Source: Bathymodiolus heckerae thiotrophic gill symbiont (lineage in GTDB: Bacteria > Pseudomonadota > Gammaproteobacteria > PS1 > Pseudothioglobaceae). Taken from it: 47,874 nt of DNA. Location of the stretch: the NCBI RefSeq assembly GCF_900180345.1, contig NZ_FXLV01000003.1, positions 1 through 47,874 on the forward strand, given 5' to 3'. Positions 19,948-47,874 of the stretch are shown piece after piece. A model generated the notes under the pieces. It saw only the letters and a program-made list of their open reading frames with translations, was not told the DNA's origin and ran no database searches. The position numbers and the translations under genes are program-made. Position 1 is the first letter of the stretch. Each line of letters starts with the position of its first letter.

Positions 19948-19976
19948 TTTTTCTCCATTTTAAAAGTTAAAAAAAT

Positions 19977-20040
19977 GAGCGTCGTTTTGATTTTACCAAG
20001 CCTGATTGAAAACAATTTTTCAATGCAACGCTCCTTGGCG
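19977..20040 (-). promoter_or_regulatory. SAH riboswitch upstream of ahcY
   Basis: Read on the minus strand the leader has CGCCAAGGAGCGTTGCA, a hairpin with an 8-bp stem (ATTGAAAA/TTTTCAAT), CAGGCTTGG, and finally AACGACGCTC. CCAAG pairs with CTTGG. GAGCG can pair with CGCTC to make the pseudoknot. These match the conserved blocks of the SAH riboswitch (GGAGCGcUGCa, CAGGCUcGG, aaCGgCGCUC). It ends about 30 bp before the start codon. In known cases SAH binding turns ahcY on. Confidence 0.87.
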
Positions 20041-20053
20041 TGTTTGTTATTTT

Positions 20054-37126: not shown

Positions 37127-37597
37127 ATGAAAATTTTAGGAATTGACCCCGGTTCAAGAGTAACAGGCTTTGGTTTGATTGAGGCCGAAAAACTCAAATT
37201 TACTTATCTTGCCAGTGGTTGCATTCGCACCAAAGGTGAATTGACTGAGCGAATTACCACAATTTTTGAAGGCATTAGTCAAATCGTTGAGCAATATCAG
37301 CCCGATGTTGTGGTTATTGAGCGTGCATTTATGCGACCTGATCGTCCCAATCCAGACGCTGCTATTAAACTAGGGCATGCACGAGGTGCGATTATTGCGG
37401 CAGTTGGCTCTCGTGGAATTGTCATGGTGGAATACAGCCCCAATCAGATTAAAAAAGTGATTGTTGGCAAGGGGCACGCTGCAAAAGATCAAGTAAGTTA
37501 TATGGTGTGCGAATCCTTAAAACTTAATAAAGCACCGCAAGAAGATGCAACAGATGCGCTGGCGGGCGCTATCTGCCATGCTTATCATTGTCTTTAA
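37127..37597 (+). CDS. ruvC: Holliday junction resolvase RuvC
   Basis: A 156-residue endonuclease that cuts Holliday junctions. Catalytic acids are visible in MKILGIDPGSRVTGFG (Asp7), VVVIERAFM (Glu) and EDATDALAGAICHAY. The ATG at 37127 starts directly before the conserved ILGIDPGS; the longer frame runs through parE. It starts 4 bp after the toxin gene and ends overlapping the convergent CDF gene by 4 bp. Confidence 0.96.
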   Translation: MKILGIDPGSRVTGFGLIEAEKLKFTYLASGCIRTKGELTERITTIFEGISQIVEQYQPDVVVIERAFMRPDRPNPDAAIKLGHARGAIIAAVGSRGIVMVEYSPNQIKKVIVGKGHAAKDQVSYMVCESLKLNKAPQEDATDALAGAICHAYHCL

Positions 37598-38727
37598 CTA
37601 AAATAGACCTTAATATTGCCAAAGGCGGGTAATACTTTTATAACTTTAGTGAGTTTGTTTAAAATGTCATTATGGCTTATATCCGCAGACAAACAACTGA
37701 GTGGCAGGTAAAAGTCTACATGAATTTTTCCGTCTAAATAGTGTAATTGAATGCGTTCAATTTCTCCATCACATTGATTATTAAACAAAGTTTTGTTTAG
37801 AATGCCTAGAGCCTCAGCACGCTCAGGCAAGTGCTCGCAAGGTGCCACTGTTTCGTCATCTTCAGGGTCAATATGCACAGTAACATCAGACAACTCTTCT
37901 AAGCATTCTTTTGCTGCTCGTTCGACACTGACGCTAATAATATGTCCCTCGCTGACACTCAGAAACGGGTCAACTTGCACATGCACATCGGCTGAAATAG
38001 CACTGCCGATTTTACGAGTGCGTAGTGAATGCACATTATTAACCCCGCTAATCATCCCAATTGCTTGTTTGAGCTGTTCAACTTGTTCTGCGTTAATGGA
38101 AGTATCAACCAACTCTTTGGTCGCATTCACCCCTAATTCCCAAGCAATATAAACAACCATTAAGCCAACCACAATGGCGGCAACCCCATCTAAGTATGGA
38201 TAGCCATTAATACTACCCAAGACCCCCACAAACACGACAACAGAGGACAACGCATCTGAACGATGATGCCAAGCGTTGGCTTTAAGCATATCCGATTTAT
38301 AAGTTTTGGCAACTTTGAGTGTGTACCAATACAAAACCTCTTTAGAGAAAATAGACAACACAGCAACACTTAAAAGTAGCGTACTGTGTGTGATCACACT
38401 TGGGTTATTTAAGCGTTCAAAAGCATCAAAAATAACCCCAACACCAACAATCGCCAGAATAATCGCTAATCCCAGCGTGGCAACGGTTTCAAAGCGTTTA
38501 TGCCCGTAAGGATGCTCCTCATCGGCCTCTTCGGCAGCGTGTTTGACGGCATACAGCACTATGCCATCGGAAAGCAAATCTGAGAATGAGTGAATGCCGT
38601 CGGCAATCAGCGCACCGGAGTTGCCCAATACACCTGCAATCACTTTAAGGATGGCGAGCAATAAATCAACAATCGCACCAATGAAGGTAACTTTTTGACT
38701 GGCTTTTGTTTTATTGTGTGAATTCAA
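37594..38727 (-). CDS. Cation diffusion facilitator (CDF) metal exporter
   Basis: A 377-residue protein with about six membrane helices. Metal-site motifs are GIHSFSDLLSDGIVL in helix 2 and NAWHHRSDALSSVVVFVG in helix 5. EEHPYGHKRFET follows helix 2, and the cytoplasmic domain has SADVHVQVDP. CDF proteins exchange Zn, Fe, Co or Mn for protons. The C-terminal region is longer than usual by about 70 residues. The metal is not decided by sequence; proximity to the iron region is suggestive only. Confidence 0.88.
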   Translation of the reverse strand: MNSHNKTKASQKVTFIGAIVDLLLAILKVIAGVLGNSGALIADGIHSFSDLLSDGIVLYAVKHAAEEADEEHPYGHKRFETVATLGLAIILAIVGVGVIFDAFERLNNPSVITHSTLLLSVAVLSIFSKEVLYWYTLKVAKTYKSDMLKANAWHHRSDALSSVVVFVGVLGSINGYPYLDGVAAIVVGLMVVYIAWELGVNATKELVDTSINAEQVEQLKQAIGMISGVNNVHSLRTRKIGSAISADVHVQVDPFLSVSEGHIISVSVERAAKECLEELSDVTVHIDPEDDETVAPCEHLPERAEALGILNKTLFNNQCDGEIERIQLHYLDGKIHVDFYLPLSCLSADISHNDILNKLTKVIKVLPAFGNIKVYFS

Positions 38728-38796: not shown

Positions 38797-39696
38797 TCAA
38801 GTGGCGATAAAGATTTGTTTTTGGCTAACTTGTTGCGCTATATGACTGTAAATAATCGTGGATCTGGCGTATTTGTGACCGAGTAGTTTTTGTAGTGTTT
38901 TTATGTCAACTTGATTTTGCAATAAATGTAGCGCATAAGAATATCTAAAGGTTTGTGCTGTGACTTTAAAATCAATATTGATTTTTTTGGCAGCGGCGAT
39001 GATGTTGTAATTTAGGGTATTACTGATAATAGGAAATCTGGTTAATTGACCTTCTGCACTATTACACAACTGTTTCATCGGGAACAAATAAAGCGCATCA
39101 GTATTATTTTTTTGGAAAAATTTACTCTTAGAATCTTTGTTATATTGTTCGCTAACAAATGACATTTGATTGCGAATTTCGTCGGTGATTTTCAAAGGTA
39201 TTGACAATACTCTAGCGTACTTGTGATTGGATACACTCAATCGATTGTTGGTTAAATCAATATCGCCTAATTTCAAGTTCAACACTTCGTTAGAGCGCAA
39301 ACCACAACCGTATAAAAGGTAGACAATCAGTTGATAAGAGTCTTTTAAGTGATAAGCAATAGCACTAATCTGTTTTTTGGACAGTGTTTGGGGTAAATGA
39401 TTGTTGTGTTTCAGCCTTAGTGCTGAGTTTAAATTGTTATTTATAGGTACATTGAGTATTTTATTGTATAAAAAAATAATCGCATTTAACGCCTGATTGT
39501 AAGCTGATGTTTTGACTTGTTTAACAATTAAATCGGTTAAAAAATCTTGAATATCTTGCGTGGTAAATAGTGATAATGCTTTATTGTGATATTTTAAAAA
39601 ACGAACAATCCAAGATTGGTAAGCGTTGACTGTTGTTACGCTGTAATGATTGTCATTCAATGATTGGATTATTTCTTGCCTACTAATGCATCTCAT
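38797..39696 (-). CDS. Tyrosine recombinase / integrase
   Basis: A 299-residue site-specific recombinase. An N-terminal SAM-like core-binding domain (to ~90) is followed by the catalytic domain: Arg in YGCGLRSNEVLNLKLGDIDL, Arg in TAQTFRYSYALHLL, His in LLGHKYARSTIIYSHI and the nucleophile Tyr in IIYSH. The first His of the usual HxxR box is replaced by Gln (AQTFR), as happens in some active members. Overall pattern is XerC/IntI-like. No attI or attC array could be identified beside it. Its start is 133 bp from a perfect Fur box. Confidence 0.82.
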   Translation of the reverse strand: MRCISRQEIIQSLNDNHYSVTTVNAYQSWIVRFLKYHNKALSLFTTQDIQDFLTDLIVKQVKTSAYNQALNAIIFLYNKILNVPINNNLNSALRLKHNNHLPQTLSKKQISAIAYHLKDSYQLIVYLLYGCGLRSNEVLNLKLGDIDLTNNRLSVSNHKYARVLSIPLKITDEIRNQMSFVSEQYNKDSKSKFFQKNNTDALYLFPMKQLCNSAEGQLTRFPIISNTLNYNIIAAAKKINIDFKVTAQTFRYSYALHLLQNQVDIKTLQKLLGHKYARSTIIYSHIAQQVSQKQIFIAT

Positions 39697-39828: not shown

Positions 39829-39849
39829 AATGATAATGATTATCATTAT
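39829..39849. promoter_or_regulatory. Fur box 1
   Basis: AATGATAATGATTATCATT is a 19-bp near-perfect palindrome (9-1-9) that matches the Fur consensus GATAATGATAATCATTATC closely. It lies between the divergent integrase gene (start 39696) and the short ORF at 40080. The gene-free stretch 39697-40079 also holds the palindrome at 39948 and Fur box 2. Confidence 0.88.
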
Positions 39850-39987: not shown

Positions 39988-40019
39988 TTGACAATACAAA
40001 TGATAATCAGTATCATTTG
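39988..40019 (+). promoter_or_regulatory. Fur-controlled promoter A with Fur box 2
   Basis: A perfect -35 TTGACA (39988-39993), 17-bp spacer and -10-like TATCAT (40011-40016). The Fur box CAAATGATA...TATCATTTG (39997-40019) covers the spacer and -10, so Fur bound to iron would block RNA polymerase. Transcription would start near 40023, 57 bp before a short ORF with a strong ribosome-binding site. Confidence 0.8.
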
Positions 40020-40079: not shown

Positions 40080-40169
40080 ATGAAAATGAAAATAAAGAAA
40101 GGTTACTTACTAATTAGTCGAAAAGAATTAAAAGATTATTTGGATTTTTTCTCAAAATTGGCTAATTGA
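40080..40169 (+). CDS. 29-residue peptide ORF behind Fur promoter A
   Basis: ATG preceded by AACAGGAGAA, an excellent ribosome-binding site. The product is a basic peptide beginning MKMKIKKGYLLISRKELKDY and ending FFSKLAN. No family recognised. It is the first ORF downstream of a promoter overlapped by a Fur box. It could be a small protein or a leader peptide. The following 40170-40388 holds no gene I can support. Confidence 0.45.
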   Translation: MKMKIKKGYLLISRKELKDYLDFFSKLAN

Positions 40170-40388
40170 GTATTATAAATAACAACGCCAATGCCAGATT
40201 TTTAAAAAACCTCCTTATTTTTTTTGAACTCATCAACGGTATAGTTGTTATTTTCTTTGTCCAGTAAAGAGCTTGTCGCTCACTACGCTGGATTCCATGA
40301 AAAAAGGGATATAAATTGCCGGTTTAAAGGAAAACTCTCTCATAAAAAAACTAATTTAGGCTGGCAATCTATATATCTTTTACAATTT

Positions 40389-40418
40389 GAGACCTTTGCA
40401 TAAATATGCAAAGGTCTC
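40389..40418. mobile_element. MITE end-to-end remnant (30 bp)
   Basis: Two MITE ends joined directly: GAGACCTTTGCATA-aa-TATGCAAAGGTCTC, a perfect 14-bp-arm palindrome with a 2-base centre. The element interior is missing and no 5-bp duplication flanks it (AATTT left, TATAA right). It stands 22 bp upstream of the next short ORF. Confidence 0.85.
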
Positions 40419-40440
40419 TATAAATAAAAAAGGCGGAATA

Positions 40441-40566
40441 ATGAAAAATAAACTCATCGATATACAAACTACACCTAGCGTTAATCAAGCGCATATTAAA
40501 CCACCAGCTAAGAACAAAAAGCCAAGCACTGGCTGCAATAAATGTCGTGGCTGTCATGCTAAGTAA
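40441..40566 (+). CDS. 41-residue Cys-rich small protein
   Basis: ATG preceded by AAGGCGG at 5 bp. The product begins MKNKLIDIQTTPSVNQ, has a lysine/proline-rich middle (KPPAKNKKPSTG) and ends CNKCRGCHAK. The last motif (Cys-x2-Cys-x2-Cys-His) could bind a metal or cluster. No signal peptide. Its stop overlaps the next start as TAATG, so the three short ORFs here look like one translationally coupled group. Family not recognised. Confidence 0.6.
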   Translation: MKNKLIDIQTTPSVNQAHIKPPAKNKKPSTGCNKCRGCHAK

Positions 40567-40733
40567 TGATGTTAGATTTTTGGCATAACTATAAAGTGCG
40601 TTATCTGCGCAGGCACAATACGCTTGATTTTGATTCAATGAGGGGGTTCAGTGTTCCCAGTCGAATTATTAAAGAGGTTTTGCTGAGTGAAGTTGCCAAC
40701 GAAATTGGACGGTTAAGAAATGGTAATAAATAA
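40566..40733 (+). CDS. 55-residue small protein
   Basis: The start overlaps the previous stop (TAATG) and the end overlaps the next ORF by 14 bp. The product begins MMLDFWHNYKVRYLRRHNTL, contains GFSVPSRIIKEVLLSEVANE and ends RLRNGNK. It is basic, soluble and probably helical at its C-terminus. No known family. Tight coupling with its neighbours argues for a real gene. Confidence 0.5.
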   Translation: MMLDFWHNYKVRYLRRHNTLDFDSMRGFSVPSRIIKEVLLSEVANEIGRLRNGNK

Positions 40734-40884
40734 AATCAATCTAAAAAGCGGTATGCGTTCGTGTGAAATTGATACAATTAACTGTATTGCAAAATATCTT
40801 TGGGGGTTTGATGACTCTTTGTTAGTCGAAAGGGAACTAGATTTAGATGAAATACAATTATTATATTTGTATTTTAATTATTGA
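40720..40884 (+). CDS. 54-residue small protein
   Basis: Overlaps the previous ORF by 14 bp. The product begins MVINKINLKSGMRSCEIDTI, contains two cysteines (SCEID, NCIAK), and ends in an acidic then aromatic tail (LDLDEIQLLYLYFNY). No family recognised. It is last of the short-ORF group; a MITE follows 9 bp after its stop. Confidence 0.5.
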   Translation: MVINKINLKSGMRSCEIDTINCIAKYLWGFDDSLLVERELDLDEIQLLYLYFNY

Positions 40885-40892
40885 TTTAATAA

Positions 40893-41053
40893 GAGACCTT
40901 TGCATAAATAGGGATGATTAGCAAAATTCAATTTTTGCCAGATTGGTGATTTTATTAAACCTTGTCCTAGCAGGGCTAAGGCTGGGTTTAAAAAATCGCC
41001 AAGCGGGTGAAAAGTGGATTTTTGATGATTATTCATATTTATGCAAAGGTCTC
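40893..41053 (-). mobile_element. MITE copy 6 (161 bp)
   Basis: Full copy in reverse orientation with perfect 18-bp ends and an AATAA duplication (40888-40892 and 41054-41058). It lies between the short-ORF group and the second palindrome/Fur-box promoter, upstream of the porin operon. With the regulatory block at 41101-41172 it accounts for most of the gene-free stretch 40885-41296. Confidence 0.95.
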
Positions 41054-41100
41054 AATAAGTGTAATAAAGGTTTTTAGGCGGTATTTGTAAAGTTGAGTTA

Positions 41101-41172
41101 TGTGATATATCACAATATTAGTATATTATGATAATGTTTATTATTAATGCAAATGATAACTGGTATCATTTG
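41101..41172 (+). promoter_or_regulatory. Palindrome B plus Fur box 3 before the porin operon
   Basis: TGTGATATATCACA (41101-41114), 35 bp, then the Fur box CAAATGATA...TATCATTTG (41150-41172). The geometry is identical to that at 39948-40019. The -10-like TATCAT (41164-41169) is again inside the Fur box, but the -35 position is only TTATTA here. The porin gene starts 125 bp downstream, with AAAGGAATA as its ribosome-binding site. Confidence 0.78.
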
Positions 41173-41296: not shown

Positions 41297-42211
41297 ATGA
41301 AAAGGAATAAAATTGTAACATTAGGTACGCTAATTGTAGGCACAACAACTGTATTTGCAGGCACTGAAATGGACGCCTTAAAAGATCGTATTACTGAACT
41401 TGAAAATAGTGCGACTAAGGTTGAAATTAGTGGTGCAATTAGTGTGAATTACGCCAAAGGCAATCAAACTGATAAAGAGATTTATGTCGATGGAGTGGAA
41501 ATAGGCATTGCGACCAGTATTGCCGATGGGTTTAATGCAAACATTGTATTTTTAGCGGAAGTTGATGATGATGCGGACAATGAGCTGAAAAACCCTGTTA
41601 TTGATGAAATTACCATTGGTGGCAGCATCAACAGTGTTGACTTTTCTATAGGTAAGCAAAGCGCACCGTTTGGCGCATATGAAAGTATGATGATTTCTAA
41701 TGCCACAGAAGGTATGGGTGATACTGGTACGAAAAGTTTAATACTTTCAACGGAAGTTGGCGGGATAACACTTTCAGCATGGAGCGGTAGTAGTAAGAAT
41801 CGTGGTTTCTCTATTGGCTATGAAGGCGAGCACTTTGCTGTTGGCGTTGACACCATTCGTGATGCTGGCGGAGATGCTCAAAAACAGTCAGATATTGTGA
41901 ATAATAAGGGCACGGCTATTCATGGGCAATTTTCAATAAATAATGTTACTTTGATTGCCGAAAAGGTTGCAGTTAAGACCCCTAGTGCGAATAAGGCACA
42001 TGTAACTTCAGTAGAAGCGCAGTATACAATGAGTGATTTTACAGTTGCGTTGAGAAAAGACAGCACTGACGACGCTACTAATGCTGATGCAACTTTGTTT
42101 GCCGTTGGTTATGAGTTTACCGAAGGCTTGGGTTTAACAATAGAAAACTTCAACCCAAAAGCGGCAGGCAAAGATACTGTAATGACCGCTAATTTAGCTT
42201 ACGAATTTTAA
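41297..42211 (+). CDS. LbtU-like outer-membrane porin
   Basis: A 304-residue exported beta-barrel protein. The signal peptide ends near VFAG. A short coiled coil follows (MDALKDRITELENSATKVEI), then alternating amphipathic strands, ending in the C-terminal aromatic signature LAYEF. The coiled coil plus barrel layout resembles LbtU, the Legionella siderophore porin, and small trimeric porins. It lies behind Fur box 3 and starts the imelysin operon, so iron or iron-chelate passage through the outer membrane is a reasonable inference. Confidence 0.78.
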   Translation: MKRNKIVTLGTLIVGTTTVFAGTEMDALKDRITELENSATKVEISGAISVNYAKGNQTDKEIYVDGVEIGIATSIADGFNANIVFLAEVDDDADNELKNPVIDEITIGGSINSVDFSIGKQSAPFGAYESMMISNATEGMGDTGTKSLILSTEVGGITLSAWSGSSKNRGFSIGYEGEHFAVGVDTIRDAGGDAQKQSDIVNNKGTAIHGQFSINNVTLIAEKVAVKTPSANKAHVTSVEAQYTMSDFTVALRKDSTDDATNADATLFAVGYEFTEGLGLTIENFNPKAAGKDTVMTANLAYEF

Positions 42212-42235
42212 TTGATTAATATTAGGAGAAATAAC

Positions 42236-43537
42236 ATGAGAACACAAAAAAGAATTATAGTTTCATCAGTGCTTACAATAGTAATGGTGGCATCTACTGC
42301 TCAAGCATTTTTGGGCGCTAAGAATGGAGTATTAACTACTTATGCAGATATTGCTACCGCTAATTATACGGATGCATTAAACGATGCTAAAACTTTACAA
42401 GTAGCATTAAAAGGCTTTACCAACAATCCCACAGCCGCAACCATGGCCAACGCAAAAGCGACTTGGCTAAATGCGCGTGAATCTTATGGACAAATAGAGG
42501 TATTTAGATTGTCAAATGGTCCGATTGATGCAGAAGAAGGCTGGCATACGGCTTATGGCGCACCAGAAGGGCAGCTTAATGCATGGCCGTTGGATGAAAA
42601 TATGATTGACTACACGACTGATACTAAAGGTAAGAGAACTTCTGGCAATATCATTGATGCAAAAGGCTCGTTTACCCCAAGTGGCAATAAATCTGTAACA
42701 GTAAATGTGAGTAATATTACCCCTGATGCACTTGCAGCGTTGAATGAAAATGGTGGTGATGCGAATGTGGCAACGGGCTATCATGCGATTGAGTTTTTGC
42801 TTTGGGGTCAAGACCAAGATTATGCCAACTTTATGAAAGATGGTGTTACCAATGGTGCATTGACTGCTGGCCAAAGACCCGTAGCTGATTACACAACAGC
42901 TAAAAACGCCAATCGTCGTAAGCAATATCTAAATGCAGCATCTGCACTTATCGTTTCAGATCTTGAAGCGATGACTGCCGCATGGGCTGATGGAGACGAT
43001 AGCAACTACAAAGCGGCGTTATTAGGTAATAATGCAGACAGCGCTAAAAATATCGATGAGAAAACAGCGCTGTCTCAAATCTTTGCAGGCATGGGCGTGT
43101 TTATTAAATCAGAATTAGCGAATGAGCGCATTGCTGTTGCTGTATTAACACCAAGTGAAGAAGACGAGCACAGTTGTTTTTCTGACAACACTCACCGTGA
43201 TATTACGCAAAATTATCAGGGTTTTAAAAACATTTTATTTGGCACTTACAACGGTGTTGATTACGGCGTAGCACCGATTGATGCACTAAAAGATAAGTCT
43301 AAGTTAATGGCATTGATTAAATCTGCGGATGCTAAAGTGAATCAAATGAATGCTTTGGCACGAACCTCTCGTCATTTTGATTACCAAATTCGTCCTAATG
43401 ATTCTCAGGCCAAGCAAATTAAAAAGCTTAAAAATGAGTTAAGAGCGATTGGCGACCAAATGATTAATGTGGCTAAAGCAAACGGTGTTAATTTGAGTAT
43501 TGGCGATGTGACGGATGGTGAAGAGACTCAACTTTAA
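42236..43537 (+). CDS. Imelysin-family periplasmic iron-regulated protein
   Basis: About 433 residues. Start at ATG 42236 after AGGAGAA, with a signal peptide ending TAQAF. It has two imelysin helical bundles. The conserved GYHAIEFLLWGQDQD (the GxHxxE motif) lies in the first half, and a second segment around SDNTHRDITQNYQGFKNILF lies later. Imelysin/IrpA proteins are surface or periplasmic and induced by iron limitation; direct iron binding is still debated. The next gene starts 23 bp before its stop, so the genes are coupled. Confidence 0.92.
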   Translation: MRTQKRIIVSSVLTIVMVASTAQAFLGAKNGVLTTYADIATANYTDALNDAKTLQVALKGFTNNPTAATMANAKATWLNARESYGQIEVFRLSNGPIDAEEGWHTAYGAPEGQLNAWPLDENMIDYTTDTKGKRTSGNIIDAKGSFTPSGNKSVTVNVSNITPDALAALNENGGDANVATGYHAIEFLLWGQDQDYANFMKDGVTNGALTAGQRPVADYTTAKNANRRKQYLNAASALIVSDLEAMTAAWADGDDSNYKAALLGNNADSAKNIDEKTALSQIFAGMGVFIKSELANERIAVAVLTPSEEDEHSCFSDNTHRDITQNYQGFKNILFGTYNGVDYGVAPIDALKDKSKLMALIKSADAKVNQMNALARTSRHFDYQIRPNDSQAKQIKKLKNELRAIGDQMINVAKANGVNLSIGDVTDGEETQL

Positions 43538-44564
43538 TAGAGCCTTATTGTTGGCATTAATCCTTGGCATTGTTTTGATGCCAAGGGTTTTTGCCGTCTC
43601 AATCAAGGCGTTTAATGAAGATAGGTTTATTTTGGGTAAAAGTTTTTTTGAAAAACCTTGGGTGGCTTTTCCTGCATCCACTACAGCGCGTGACGGATTG
43701 GGCCCTTTGTTTAATCAGAATGCTTGTGTAAATTGTCATCCAAAAGGAGGTAGGAGTAATAAATTTGTCGTTAAATTAGACAATCCTAATACTATTTACG
43801 GGGGGCAGATTAGCACACAATCTGCTGGCAATGTGCCTGCGGAGGCAAAGGTGGCAATTGATTATCAAATGTACACAGCACATTATGCAAATGGCGATAA
43901 AGTGGTATTAAAAAAGCCAGTGGTCAAGCTTAGTAATCTAGGTTATGGTAAAGTTGATAGCACTCTCTCGGTGCGTATTTCCCCTTCTTTGCATGGCTTG
44001 GGCTTGTTGGCAAGTATTCCCAATAAGCCTGTAAAGCGTTTTAATTTAAGTGCCAGCGAGCCATCTATTTTAGCGCAAGCAGCAAACGCTGCCCATAATG
44101 ATATGGGTTTGAGTAACCCACTTTATCCGCAGGAAAATTGCACCAATAAGCAGGAAAAATGCAACAACGCCCCCAAAAGTAACTCGTTGGATTTACCACA
44201 ACATCGCTTAAAGGCAATTGCTTATTTTGTTAAAAGCTTGGACAAGGTGAGTGCAGTTAAGCCGATTAAACTGTTTGCTAAAATCGGTTGTAGTCGTTGT
44301 CATACACCGAGTTATGTCTTAGAAAAACGCACTATTTATCCTTATAGTGATTTATTGGTACATAATTTAGGCGAAGGTGATTTTCGCACTGCACCGCTTT
44401 GGAGCAGCAAAAAAGCACCTAATTTTTGGCATGACGGGCGTGCCAGCACTGTTGAAGAGGCGATTTTATGGCATGGTGGCGAAGCGCAATCGGCTAAGGA
44501 AAGTTTTGTCAATTTAAGCAAAAAAGACAGAGTACAATTCATAAGATTTATTGAGAATATGTAA
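43515..44564 (+). CDS. Di-haem c-type oxidoreductase (DUF1111 family)
   Basis: A 349-residue exported protein with two c-type haem sites, CVNCH and CSRCH. The family motifs ARDGLGPLFNQNACVNCHPK, FRTAPLWSSKKAPNFWHDGR (the latter: APLWGxxxxxxFLHDGR type) and EAILWHGGEA are clear. This family is related to di-haem peroxidases and often sits beside imelysin genes. It could oxidise or reduce iron in the periplasm. Start ATG lies within the imelysin gene's end; GTG one codon later is an alternative. Confidence 0.9.
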   Translation: MVKRLNFNRALLLALILGIVLMPRVFAVSIKAFNEDRFILGKSFFEKPWVAFPASTTARDGLGPLFNQNACVNCHPKGGRSNKFVVKLDNPNTIYGGQISTQSAGNVPAEAKVAIDYQMYTAHYANGDKVVLKKPVVKLSNLGYGKVDSTLSVRISPSLHGLGLLASIPNKPVKRFNLSASEPSILAQAANAAHNDMGLSNPLYPQENCTNKQEKCNNAPKSNSLDLPQHRLKAIAYFVKSLDKVSAVKPIKLFAKIGCSRCHTPSYVLEKRTIYPYSDLLVHNLGEGDFRTAPLWSSKKAPNFWHDGRASTVEEAILWHGGEAQSAKESFVNLSKKDRVQFIRFIENM

Positions 44565-44566
44565 TT

Positions 44567-45532
44567 ATGAAAAAAGTAATCATACTAACCGCTTTACTGT
44601 TCACTTTCTGCGCCAATGCAGTAGATAAAGTCTTTTTTGAGCAAGTCATCATTGACAATGTTGAGCGCTCGATTGTTAGTATTAAGCAAATAAACGCCAG
44701 TATCAAACAAGGACAAAGCAAAAAAAGTCAAGCATTGTTTGCTCAATTAGTCAGGCATTGGAAAAAAGTAGAAGCCACTTATATGTTGGGTGATTTAAAT
44801 GAGGATTTTTTAGACACACCACGATATATTGATATTTTTCATGGCAATAATGAAGACATTAAAGCCCAATTAGATTTGATTATTAGCACTAGTGATGATT
44901 TGTCTTACGCACTTTATAAACACTCGCACAAAACCATTAACGCACTTGAATATTTGTTATTTACGCAAGATTTGTCTAATGCCAGAGTAAGTGCGATGGC
45001 TTTGATAATGGCAAAGTCTATTGAGCGTTATTTACAAGAGATTAAGTCCGCCTATCAAGCACATCAGGCTAAATTCGTGCAAGATGAGCAGTTTGCCAGT
45101 GCTATTTTGTTAAATACTTTGGTGAGCAGTGCTTATGCTTTAAAAGAATGGCGCATTGGCGATGTGGTTGGTTTGAGCAAAAAATACAAAGACCATGCAG
45201 ATGCTCAGCGCGCAGAATATGCTATAAGTCAAAATAGCACAGTGGCAATTTTGTCTATTCTGCAAGCGCATAAACAGGCGATTGATGCTCCTAACTATAA
45301 AGATTTTGGCGATGTTGCTAGAAAATTTGGTGCCAGCAAAGAAATTAATAAAACCACCGACTATCTTAATCAAGCCATCGCACAAGTTGAAAAAATGCAA
45401 GAGCAAGATTTGCTTAATGCTAAAGGAAAATCCCTATATCAATCAACTGATCGGTTAATGAATTCTTATTACTTATCGCTTATGAACAAACTGGGCTTTA
45501 TTTCAAAAGTACTTGATGCTGATGGCGATTAA
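44567..45532 (+). CDS. Second imelysin-family protein (short)
   Basis: A 321-residue exported protein with a signal peptide ending CANAV. It has one helical bundle with the imelysin-like stretch HSHKTINALEYLLFTQDLSN. The canonical GxHAIE is reduced to N-ALEY, so the His of the motif is not at its usual place. Located 2 bp after the di-haem protein. Such second imelysins are common in IrpA-type loci. The following hydroxylase gene overlaps its end. Confidence 0.85.
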   Translation: MKKVIILTALLFTFCANAVDKVFFEQVIIDNVERSIVSIKQINASIKQGQSKKSQALFAQLVRHWKKVEATYMLGDLNEDFLDTPRYIDIFHGNNEDIKAQLDLIISTSDDLSYALYKHSHKTINALEYLLFTQDLSNARVSAMALIMAKSIERYLQEIKSAYQAHQAKFVQDEQFASAILLNTLVSSAYALKEWRIGDVVGLSKKYKDHADAQRAEYAISQNSTVAILSILQAHKQAIDAPNYKDFGDVARKFGASKEINKTTDYLNQAIAQVEKMQEQDLLNAKGKSLYQSTDRLMNSYYLSLMNKLGFISKVLDADGD

Positions 45533-46418
45533 CCCACTTGAGTATTTAATCGACCCGCATAGGCGTATCTATTGGGTGTTTTTATTCAGTTCGGTGGTTA
45601 TTGCGGCAGTTTTTTTATGGTTTAATCCTAAAAAGCGCAGGCTTAATCTCTCAAAAAAACTATGGCTGCATCCCAGTGCTTTGTTGGATTATGGATATTT
45701 TATCTTCATCTCTGTTTTTAAAGTTTTGGTTATTTTGCCTGTGTTGATTGGTGCAAAAGAAGTGGCATTATGGGTGAATGATTTTTTATTAACGCAATAT
45801 GGTTTTGTTCGGATAGAGGGATTTTCTTACAGCCAAGTAATGGTATCTTTTACCCTGATTTTGTTTGTTTTAAGTGATTTGAGCCGTTATTGGCTACACC
45901 GTTTTTTACATACCGTGCCTTGGTTGTGGGCGTTTCACAAGGTGCATCACAGCGCTAAAGTTTTAACACCACTGACTTTTTATCGGGTGCATCCCATCGA
46001 GTCTTTGTTGTTTGGTTTGCGTTATTCGTTTGTTATCGGGCTAGTGAGCGGTGTGTTTATTTATGGCTTTGGTGCAATGATTGGTATCGTTGATATTTTA
46101 GGGGTAAACGCTTTGGCTTTTGTTTTTTCATTCGTAGGTTCTAACCTTCGACATTCTCATATCGGCATTAGTTTTGGTGCCATTATTGAGCACTTTTTAA
46201 TCTCTCCAAAGCAGCATCAAATTCATCATTCGAAGCAACATATTAATGTTAATTTTGGCGGATTTTTGGCAATCTGGGATTGGTTTTTTAATTCCTTAGT
46301 ACTATCTAGGGATGTTAATAGGGTAAAATTTGGCATTAAGTACAGTGAAATGAAGTACTTTAGTCGTTTTCATCAGCTTATTTTTTCTCCTTTCTTTCTA
46401 TTATTCAAATCAAAATGA
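45516..46418 (+). CDS. Fatty-acid hydroxylase superfamily membrane protein
   Basis: About 300 residues with five or six membrane helices. The di-iron histidine boxes are clear: HRFLH, HKVHHS, and QHQIHHS, in the order of the sterol desaturase/fatty acid hydroxylase superfamily. These are iron-dependent oxygenases acting on lipids. The gene overlaps the upstream imelysin (start at 45516 or 45522) and the downstream peroxidase (4 bp), so it is a true operon member. A lipid or lipid-like chelator substrate is speculation. Confidence 0.85.
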   Translation: MLMAINPLEYLIDPHRRIYWVFLFSSVVIAAVFLWFNPKKRRLNLSKKLWLHPSALLDYGYFIFISVFKVLVILPVLIGAKEVALWVNDFLLTQYGFVRIEGFSYSQVMVSFTLILFVLSDLSRYWLHRFLHTVPWLWAFHKVHHSAKVLTPLTFYRVHPIESLLFGLRYSFVIGLVSGVFIYGFGAMIGIVDILGVNALAFVFSFVGSNLRHSHIGISFGAIIEHFLISPKQHQIHHSKQHINVNFGGFLAIWDWFFNSLVLSRDVNRVKFGIKYSEMKYFSRFHQLIFSPFFLLFKSK

Positions 46419-47545
46419 AGTTATTATCCTTATTTTTTATTCTAATGTTAAGTGCCTGTGGCACAGAATCCAACCTCAATACGCAAAAACAAGCACTCGG
46501 TCAACAGCTGTTTTTTGATCCAATTTTGTCTAACAATCGCACCCAGTCTTGCAGTACTTGCCACAATCCCAGTTTAGGCTTTATTGATAATCGTGATAAT
46601 GGTGTTGGTGGCGCTGCCTCTCTTGGCGATGATGGTAAAAGTTTAGGTGATAGAAACACCCCAAGTGCAGCATATGCTATGCTTAGCCCTGACTTTCATT
46701 TTAATAAAAAAAACCAACAATGGATAGGCGGGCAATTTCTCGACGGGCGTGAACAAGATCTAAAAGGACAAGCAGGTGGTCCGCCACTTAACCCCGGTGA
46801 AATGAATTTGCCAAACAAACAAACTTTGATTAATCGTTTTAAGAATCATCCTGCTTATAACACGCAATTTAAAGATATTTATGGCGATGATGTTTTTAAC
46901 GATGCCGACAAAGCGTATACAGCAATGGCACAAAGTATTGCCGAATTTGAAAAAACCAAAATTTTTGCCCCATTTGACTCAAAATATGACCGTTATTTGG
47001 CGGGCAAATACGAGCTCACAGATTTAGAAGATTTAGGACGCTCTTTATTTTTCTCAAGTAGTAACATCAATTGTGCCACTTGCCATCAACTAAAAAAATT
47101 CGATAATGCCACAGGTGAAACATTTAGCAATTATGAATACCACAATATCGGCGTGCCAATTAACACCGCATTACGCACTAAAAACGGCGTAAAGACGATA
47201 GATGAAGGCTTGCTCAACAACCCCAAAGTAAACGACATAAAGCAAAAAGGAAAATTCAGGACTCCGAGTCTTAGAAATGTCGCCATCACCGCTCCTTATA
47301 TGCACAATGGCGTGTTTAAAGATCTAACAACTGTGATTATGTTTTATGACAAATACATTAATAAAAACCGCACTACTAATCCTGAAACTAATCTGCCTTG
47401 GGCAGCAGCAGAAGTGCCTGAAACGATAAATTTTAATGACCTTGAAAAAGGCATAAAACTTTCAGATAAAAAAGTAAATGCTTTAGTGGCTTTTCTAAAA
47501 ACTTTAACAGATAAGCGTTATGAGCATTTTCTGAAAAGCAATTAA
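46415..47545 (+). CDS. Di-haem cytochrome c peroxidase/MauG-family lipoprotein
   Basis: A 376-residue lipoprotein (lipobox LSAC at residues 12-15) with two haem sites, CSTCH and CATCH. The family segments QQLFFDPILSNNRTQSC, GQFLDGREQDLKGQ and FRTPSLRNVAITAPYMHNGV are present. This places it in the bacterial CcP/MauG family. Anchored in the periplasm, it may reduce peroxide or oxidise a substrate in the iron pathway. It is last in the operon. Maturation needs the Ccm system, of which ccmAB are at 21507-22765. Confidence 0.92.
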   Translation: MKLLSLFFILMLSACGTESNLNTQKQALGQQLFFDPILSNNRTQSCSTCHNPSLGFIDNRDNGVGGAASLGDDGKSLGDRNTPSAAYAMLSPDFHFNKKNQQWIGGQFLDGREQDLKGQAGGPPLNPGEMNLPNKQTLINRFKNHPAYNTQFKDIYGDDVFNDADKAYTAMAQSIAEFEKTKIFAPFDSKYDRYLAGKYELTDLEDLGRSLFFSSSNINCATCHQLKKFDNATGETFSNYEYHNIGVPINTALRTKNGVKTIDEGLLNNPKVNDIKQKGKFRTPSLRNVAITAPYMHNGVFKDLTTVIMFYDKYINKNRTTNPETNLPWAAAEVPETINFNDLEKGIKLSDKKVNALVAFLKTLTDKRYEHFLKSN

Positions 47546-47777
47546 CACCTGAATTGATAAGATGATTGAGAGTAGGTTACTTTTTTCATAATTTTCTCTC
47601 ATTTTTTTTGCACTTTATCTTGTCTTTTTGAAGTTTTTTAGTGACTGCATTGGTTTATATGGAGAATAGGAATTGATATTTTAGTTGCTTTTATTGGATT
47701 TTTTTTGTTAGGCTTTTATTTAAATATAGTTAGTGCTATCATTATTACTTGAATTCGCACATTAAGTGCAATTTCTC
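47546..47777. other. Intergenic region to IS30-type element
   Basis: There is no gene here that I can support. It is T-rich just after the operon, with no clear terminator hairpin. From about 47752 the sequence GAATTCGCACATTAAGTGCA looks like the terminal repeat of the IS30-type element whose transposase end follows. Confidence 0.5.
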
Positions 47778-47874
47778 CTAAGCCGTTAATAAATCAACAG
47801 CCTTTCCTAAAAATAACTCAACTGGTTGTTTCCCACCTCGTGTTTTTCGAGGTCTTGTATTGAGTCGCTTCATG
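47778..47874 (-). pseudogene. IS30-family transposase, 3' end cut by window edge
   Basis: The frame on the minus strand reads MKRLNTRPRKTRGGKQPVEL through KAVDLLTA to a TAG stop. LNTRPRK..GGKQPVELF is the conserved C-terminal signature of IS30 transposases (N-x-R-P-R-K-x-L-G-x-x-T-P). The element extends beyond the right edge, so whether it is intact cannot be judged. Confidence 0.85.

Follow-up and report, generated by a model that had tools for sequence, protein, structure and literature searches.

How do imelysins deal with iron, together with the di-haem proteins that partner them? The window analysed here, a stretch of 47,874 nucleotides that constitutes contig C3 of a 1.44-Mb SUP05/Thioglobaceae genome (G000), bears on this question, as it carries a six-gene operon in which two imelysins and a DUF1111 di-haem protein are accompanied by an outer-membrane porin, a membrane hydroxylase and a di-haem lipoprotein. 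The organism is a sulfur-oxidising deep-sea bacterium, and at this locus the closest relatives with a name are a Bathymodiolus thiotrophic gill symbiont and Candidatus Thioglobus. A first-pass annotation of this DNA suggested that the porin admits iron or a chelate that the imelysins then bind, with the haem proteins and hydroxylase changing its redox state or modifying a lipid-like ligand. From that interpretation we retain Fur control, a role in iron metabolism and the porin at the front, while the "MauG/CcP-type" label given to the last gene is revised. We propose with middling confidence that the operon encodes a Fur-repressed, TonB-independent, redox-coupled iron-uptake system.

Organization and predicted Fur control of the operon

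All six genes are on the plus strand, and the gene calls in the window place the five 3' genes in a packed or overlapping arrangement, with spacings in gene order of 24 nt, -23, +2, -17 and -4 (Table 1). This agrees with the initial description of a run of overlapping or nearly touching genes. A scan for internal promoter-like sites within the operon gave 26 against 22.9 +/- 4.9 expected, which is no excess.

Table 1. Positions of operon genes and upstream features in the window
Feature	Position	Strand	Basis
Second Fur box, 5' of four small ORFs (predicted)	39999..40017	.	AATGATAN5TATCATT pattern search
Four unannotated small ORFs (29, 41, 55, 54 aa), between the two Fur boxes	40080..40884	+	
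Weaker Fur-box candidate, just 5' of AATGATAACTGGTATCATT	41129-41143		
Fur-box palindrome AATGATAACTGGTATCATT, 5' of porin (predicted)	41152..41170	.	AATGATAN5TATCATT pattern
Outer-membrane porin, divergent LbtU family, C-terminal Phe	41297..42211	+	NCBIfam score and hhalign
Imelysin 1, canonical GxHxxE motif (GYHAIE)	42236..43537	+	PF09375 225 bits
DHOR/DUF1111 di-haem oxidoreductase, two CxxCH, short form of 349 aa	43515..44564	+	PF06537 127.5 bits; alignment
Imelysin 2, partner-type, motif His replaced by Asn (TINALE)	44567..45532	+	PF09375 52 bits; alignment
FA_hydroxylase-family membrane di-iron enzyme, His boxes complete	about 45516..46418	+	PF04116 86.6 bits (cut-off 31)
MauG-subfamily di-haem lipoprotein, lipobox LSAC	46415..47545	+	PF03150 (CCP_MauG) 157 bits; MauG structures

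Three copies of the palindrome pattern AATGATAN5TATCATT are present in the window versus 0.00 expected from 100 shuffles, and the one 5' of the porin is shared with four relatives (L003, L034, L035 and L047), in keeping with the Fur box that was first noted ahead of the operon. The pattern was not found just 5' of the operon in genomes of genus g2, which have for the most part lost the porin. The fur gene itself is located inside the same window and is the sole FUR-family gene found in the genome. The second predicted box and the small ORFs behind it may form an extended Fur-controlled locus that is tied to the operon. Three of the four small ORFs keep their order 5' of the porin in several other SUP05 genomes, with changes that are mostly synonymous, and none of the four has an above-cut-off match in Pfam or NCBIfam.

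Several additional elements were observed in this region. Another perfect Fur-type palindrome (39829-39847) precedes the box at 39999 by 170 bp and is close to where a minus-strand tyrosine recombinase gene (38797-39696) begins; this gene adjoins the operon and is also near the operon in L003. A CDF-type cation efflux gene (37594-38727) points away from the operon and is found near it in many SUP05 genomes. The operon promoter is separated from the small ORFs by a MITE-like element of ~161 bp with 44-nt inverted ends (40893-41053) that is missing from the equivalent site of L003, with related ends present at 40387-40423 and on contig C71. A CRP/FNR-like palindrome, TGTGATATATCACA, is situated 5' of the Fur box at about 41098-41113, and L003 has one as well. 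Elsewhere in the window, an SAH riboswitch (19970-20042, minus strand) precedes an adenosylhomocysteinase gene.

The MauG relative and its counterpart in clam symbionts

Judged by its sequence, the last gene of the operon encodes a true MauG relative rather than a cytochrome c peroxidase. When ten imelysin-linked homologues were combined into a profile, Paracoccus MauG structures were matched with an E value of about 1e-155, the matches to MbnH, BthA and cytochrome c peroxidases being far weaker, and the window protein is 44-48% identical to MauG. Like the MauG of methylamine dehydrogenase maturation in Paracoccus, it has two haems (two CxxCH motifs), and the haem ligands, Tyr294, Gln103, Pro107, Glu113 and, at positions 66 and 275, the calcium-site residues are retained in 18 of 18 imelysin-linked proteins. 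In contrast to Paracoccus MauG, the window homologue is a predicted lipoprotein in an iron operon rather than a mau operon, and it lacks both Trp199 and Trp93. Trp199 is present in all three MauGs from mau operons versus 0/18 imelysin-linked proteins (the window residue is Ile), while position 93 is variable among the latter and is mostly Leu, His or Tyr. We take as established the roles of such residues in MauG, including Tyr294 as a ligand and Trp199 as the electron-exit residue to the protein substrate. Two other assignments were considered and rejected: a classical cytochrome c peroxidase, as the axial ligand of the C-terminal haem is Tyr and not Met, and MbnH, as TIGR04039 gives 161 bits against a cut-off of 363. 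The general "MauG/CcP-type" peroxidase of the first-pass annotation is consequently better described as a close MauG relative with a Tyr ligand. BthA, which likewise has no inter-haem Trp, still forms a bis-Fe(IV) state (PMC6405878), and so bis-Fe(IV)-type reactivity stays possible for the window protein.

The genomic neighbourhoods of MauG relatives are diverse. Paracoccus MauGs are in mau operons and Azospirillum MauGs are beside imelysins, while further relatives in other Pseudomonadota have neither a mau operon nor an imelysin within about 7 kb. Matches to PF02975 (methylamine dehydrogenase) were absent from G000, and equally from the control genomes. Two MauG relatives from the family of G721 (L206 and L207) have Lys or Leu at the position of Tyr294 and no imelysin neighbours, and their function is perhaps shifting.

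A natural substitution is provided by genus g2, which we take to be clam-symbiont-type genomes, two of them perhaps Ruthia magnifica and Vesicomyosocius okutanii. In all nine operon-bearing g2 genomes the MauG slot is occupied by a Tat-type CueO-like multicopper oxidase with its copper motifs kept. At these loci (L038-L046) imelysin 1, DHOR, the multicopper oxidase and fbpCAB are intact in 9/9, while 8/9 have a disrupted or absent porin gene and 3/9 have lost both imelysin 2 and the hydroxylase, a pattern of stepwise decay in which the three joint losses may share ancestry and so possibly represent one event in related species. This series suggests that the core consists of imelysin 1, DHOR, the oxidase and FbpABC, and that imelysin 2 and the hydroxylase are a pair the system can do without.

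These observations bear on what MauG may be doing. MauG acts on methylamine dehydrogenase and MbnH acts on MbnP, and by analogy the window enzyme could be a protein-maturation enzyme that oxidises residues of imelysin or DHOR to create a metal site. MauG is its nearest solved relative by a wide margin, the haem ligands, Tyr294, Gln103, Pro107 and Glu113 are invariant, and it nearly always adjoins imelysins in the surveyed Gammaproteobacteria. However, the Trp199 exit residue is absent from every imelysin-linked homologue and Trp93 is mostly replaced, and the SUP05 species with a copper oxidase retain an imelysin 1 that is 72-74% identical to that of the window, all of which makes a maturation function unlikely in our estimation. 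It is quite unlikely that the di-haem proteins are instead peroxidases clearing H2O2 during passage of Fe(II) through the periplasm and thereby protecting against Fenton damage. Both the CCP_MauG and DHOR families do contain peroxidases, and H2O2 raises expression of an imelysin operon in Leptospira (PMC7567364), but the axial ligand is the Tyr of MauG where classical cytochrome c peroxidases have Met, and the enzyme that replaces MauG belongs to an O2-reducing multicopper oxidase family.

Hydroxylase and conservation of the gene block

Eleven histidines of the hydroxylase (H127, H131, H140, H143, H144, H158, H212, H233, H236, H237 and H241) are invariant in ten homologues. Its annotation as the ornithine-lipid hydroxylase OlsE was rejected, with NF052566 scoring 44.5 bits against a cut-off of 475 and most carriers having no match to an OlsB-type acyltransferase; ornithine lipid is thus an unlikely substrate on sequence grounds. 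The hydroxylase also occurs in another setting, together with DUF4856, an imelysin and a TonB receptor in G111, and with imelysin and TonB-receptor neighbours in G197.

The association of this hydroxylase subfamily with imelysins in two architectures, one of which includes a TonB receptor, would be expected if it makes or modifies a lipid-like iron-chelating ligand that the haem enzymes then oxidise to free the iron, and its joint loss with imelysin 2 in clam-type genomes points the same way. Against such ligand processing, no ligand-biosynthesis genes were seen in the locus, the ornithine-lipid hydroxylase score is low, the acyltransferase is rare, and the joint loss may be a single event, so that we give this explanation a low probability.

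The six-gene order is kept in L003, L004, L005, L035, L044 and L047, with the qualification that L004 ends before the porin and L005 carries an inserted ferritin-family gene within the block, and it is maintained in the imelysin carriers among the SUP05 genera g1 and g4. The block of imelysin 1, DHOR, imelysin 2, hydroxylase and MauG is also present in G207, G721 and G579 from three other gammaproteobacterial families. The imelysin 1 proteins of these three are 58-59% identical to that of the window, as compared with 31-38% for other imelysin operons, and their MauGs group with the SUP05 MauG (tree support 96/99), on account of which the five-gene block looks like a single inherited unit. The gene mix had initially been regarded as unfamiliar. 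The additions are indeed unusual, with no description of an imelysin combined with MauG or with a sterol desaturase in the open-licence literature searched, but the block is not unique to G000 and imelysin 2 is the known GxxxxE-type partner.

A survey of co-occurrence, which the first-pass annotation had called for, found the hydroxylase and MauG with imelysins far more often than chance would allow. The close MauG subfamily is present in 9 of 369 gammaproteobacterial genomes, all of them imelysin-positive and 8 with the genes adjacent, and the tight hydroxylase subfamily is present in 8 of the 369, every one imelysin-positive and adjacent; the subfamily profiles were built partly from imelysin loci, but a search with just the window sequences divides the genomes in the same way. 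With SUP05 excluded, the chance of all seven MauG genomes having an imelysin is ~3e-8 and that of all five hydroxylase genomes is ~5e-6, values that are approximate as the species counted are related. Co-occurrence at this level argues that the additions are functionally tied to the imelysins. That the six genes are accidental neighbours, the last two having a separate function, is highly improbable, since the absence of hydroxylase and MauG from the imelysin operons described for P. aeruginosa and V. cholerae (PMC3143127) is set against a five-gene block found in four families, adjacency far above chance and overlapping reading frames.

A proposed route for iron and its relation to known systems

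At the outer membrane, the porin has no match in Pfam and scores 29.7 bits with the LbtU model NF033652, under the cut-off of 90. A profile alignment of the SUP05 porins with above-cut-off LbtU porins nevertheless gave an hhalign probability of 99.3% (E 4e-20, 258 columns) that spans the whole barrel, which upholds the initial recognition of an LbtU-like porin at the operon front. Relative to the Legionella-type siderophore porin, the window protein therefore shares a profile-profile match across the barrel but is shorter and scores under the family cut-off. Bona fide LbtU porins are located 5' of imelysin genes in L051, L080, L102 and L191. A predicted porin structure was considered as a fold-search query and set aside (pLDDT 31 from three sequences). 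The one TonB-dependent receptor found in G000 is BtuB-like (vitamin-B12-type) and close to cobA, and neither a siderophore-type TonB receptor nor a TonB C-terminal domain (TonB_C) was detected in this genome, a divergent TonB being possible. Several complete g2 genomes have zero TonB-receptor matches. Taken together, the BtuB-like nature of the only receptor, the lack of a TonB_C match and the receptor-free g2 genomes indicate that iron probably enters through a porin.

At the inner membrane, the operon is linked to iron permeases. Genes fbpCAB are directly 3' of the block in most SUP05 relatives, while in L044 a FeoB is inserted between mauG and fbpC. In genus g1, FbpA is present in 5/5 imelysin carriers versus 1/7 non-carriers. 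G721 and G579 have FTR1 permeases alongside the block, accompanied in G579 by a cupredoxin. The fbpCAB genes of G000 are on contig C71 with a Fur-like box of their own, and not on the contig of the operon; no sequence in common that would join the end of the window to C71 was found. On the minus strand at this contig end (about 47760-47874) is the end of a transposase-like frame that by eye is IS30-like.

Fur control in combination with permease linkage makes a role in iron uptake well supported, as the first-pass annotation had anticipated. In the scheme that we favour, iron, most likely as Fe(II) or a small iron complex, would cross the outer membrane via the LbtU-like porin, after which imelysin 1 and DHOR, aided by imelysin 2 and the hydroxylase, would bind or relay it in the periplasm. 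A terminal oxidase, MauG here and the CueO-like multicopper oxidase in clam symbionts, would oxidise the metal or its ligand, and FbpA would then take Fe(III) for import by FbpBC. Fbp systems are Fe(III)-specific, and from this specificity and the occupation of the MauG slot by a multicopper oxidase we infer that MauG oxidises Fe(II) or an iron complex. The direction and substrate of the redox step and the part given to the hydroxylase are likewise our inference. Several points weigh against this scheme: exchange of MauG for a copper oxidase fits Fe(II) but also fits oxidation of copper, phenols or a chelator, the hydroxylase has no evident place in a simple ferroxidase version, fbpCAB of G000 is on a separate contig, and published thermofluor tests of two imelysins, described below, were negative. 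It had seemed puzzling that iron-requiring enzymes are induced under iron shortage. EfeB is a haem-dependent peroxidase of iron uptake, and the puzzle is eased, as catalytic amounts suffice, in the manner of EfeUOB, and as some lineages use a copper enzyme in place of MauG.

A broader possibility, which we raise tentatively and hold to be more doubtful than the uptake proposal, is that MauG-type enzymes are partly devoted to iron acquisition, with a periplasmic ferroxidase or iron-complex oxidase of the MauG subfamily serving TonB-free uptake interchangeably with a multicopper oxidase, in which case the methylamine role would be a specialised branch. The MauG/copper-oxidase exchange, the links to FbpABC, FTR1 and FeoB, and the series of losses in clam symbionts provide a testable scheme for imelysin function and suggest an iron route for sulfur-oxidising symbionts that have no detectable siderophore receptors. 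Additionally, MauG relatives gain a second biological setting in which the use of MauG chemistry beyond methylamine metabolism can be asked about.

Comparison with known systems places these proposals in context. The EfeUOB/FTR1 iron uptake system likewise combines an imelysin domain, a haem peroxidase and an iron permease. However, Pfam analysis of the six window genes reveals no EfeO cupredoxin fusion, DyP-type EfeB or FTR1 permease; di-haem c-type enzymes are present instead, and FbpABC is the permease in SUP05. An Azospirillum plasmid cluster (MauG, imelysin, DHOR, imelysin, DUF1513) has in common with the window a MauG and imelysin core and a Fur-like box, but it has no porin or hydroxylase and its imelysins are of another lineage (34% identity). 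The window imelysin 1 matches the P. aeruginosa ICMP structure 7xrx with an E value of 2e-57, and its GxHxxE motif is kept in an alignment of 20/20 homologues. The closest published relatives are the Fur-regulated operons PA4370-PA4373 of P. aeruginosa and VC1264-VC1266 of V. cholerae, which encode an imelysin, a DUF1111 protein and another imelysin whose motif lacks the His; in thermofluor tests of two imelysins, binding of Fe(III) or haem was not found (PMC3143127). Imelysin plus DUF1111 is hence the known neighbourhood it was first taken to be, and the window shares with these operons a GxHxxE imelysin, a DUF1111 di-haem protein, a His-less second imelysin and a predicted Fur box. It has a hydroxylase where many relatives have a DUF1513 gene, a common but non-essential companion that is absent from the window operon and present in L080, L084, L103 and L210. 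MauG and the LbtU-like porin are extra in the window, and fbpCAB is next in its relatives. While the imelysin-DHOR-imelysin core was already known, the window shows a new form of this iron-uptake operon, one with an orphan MauG.
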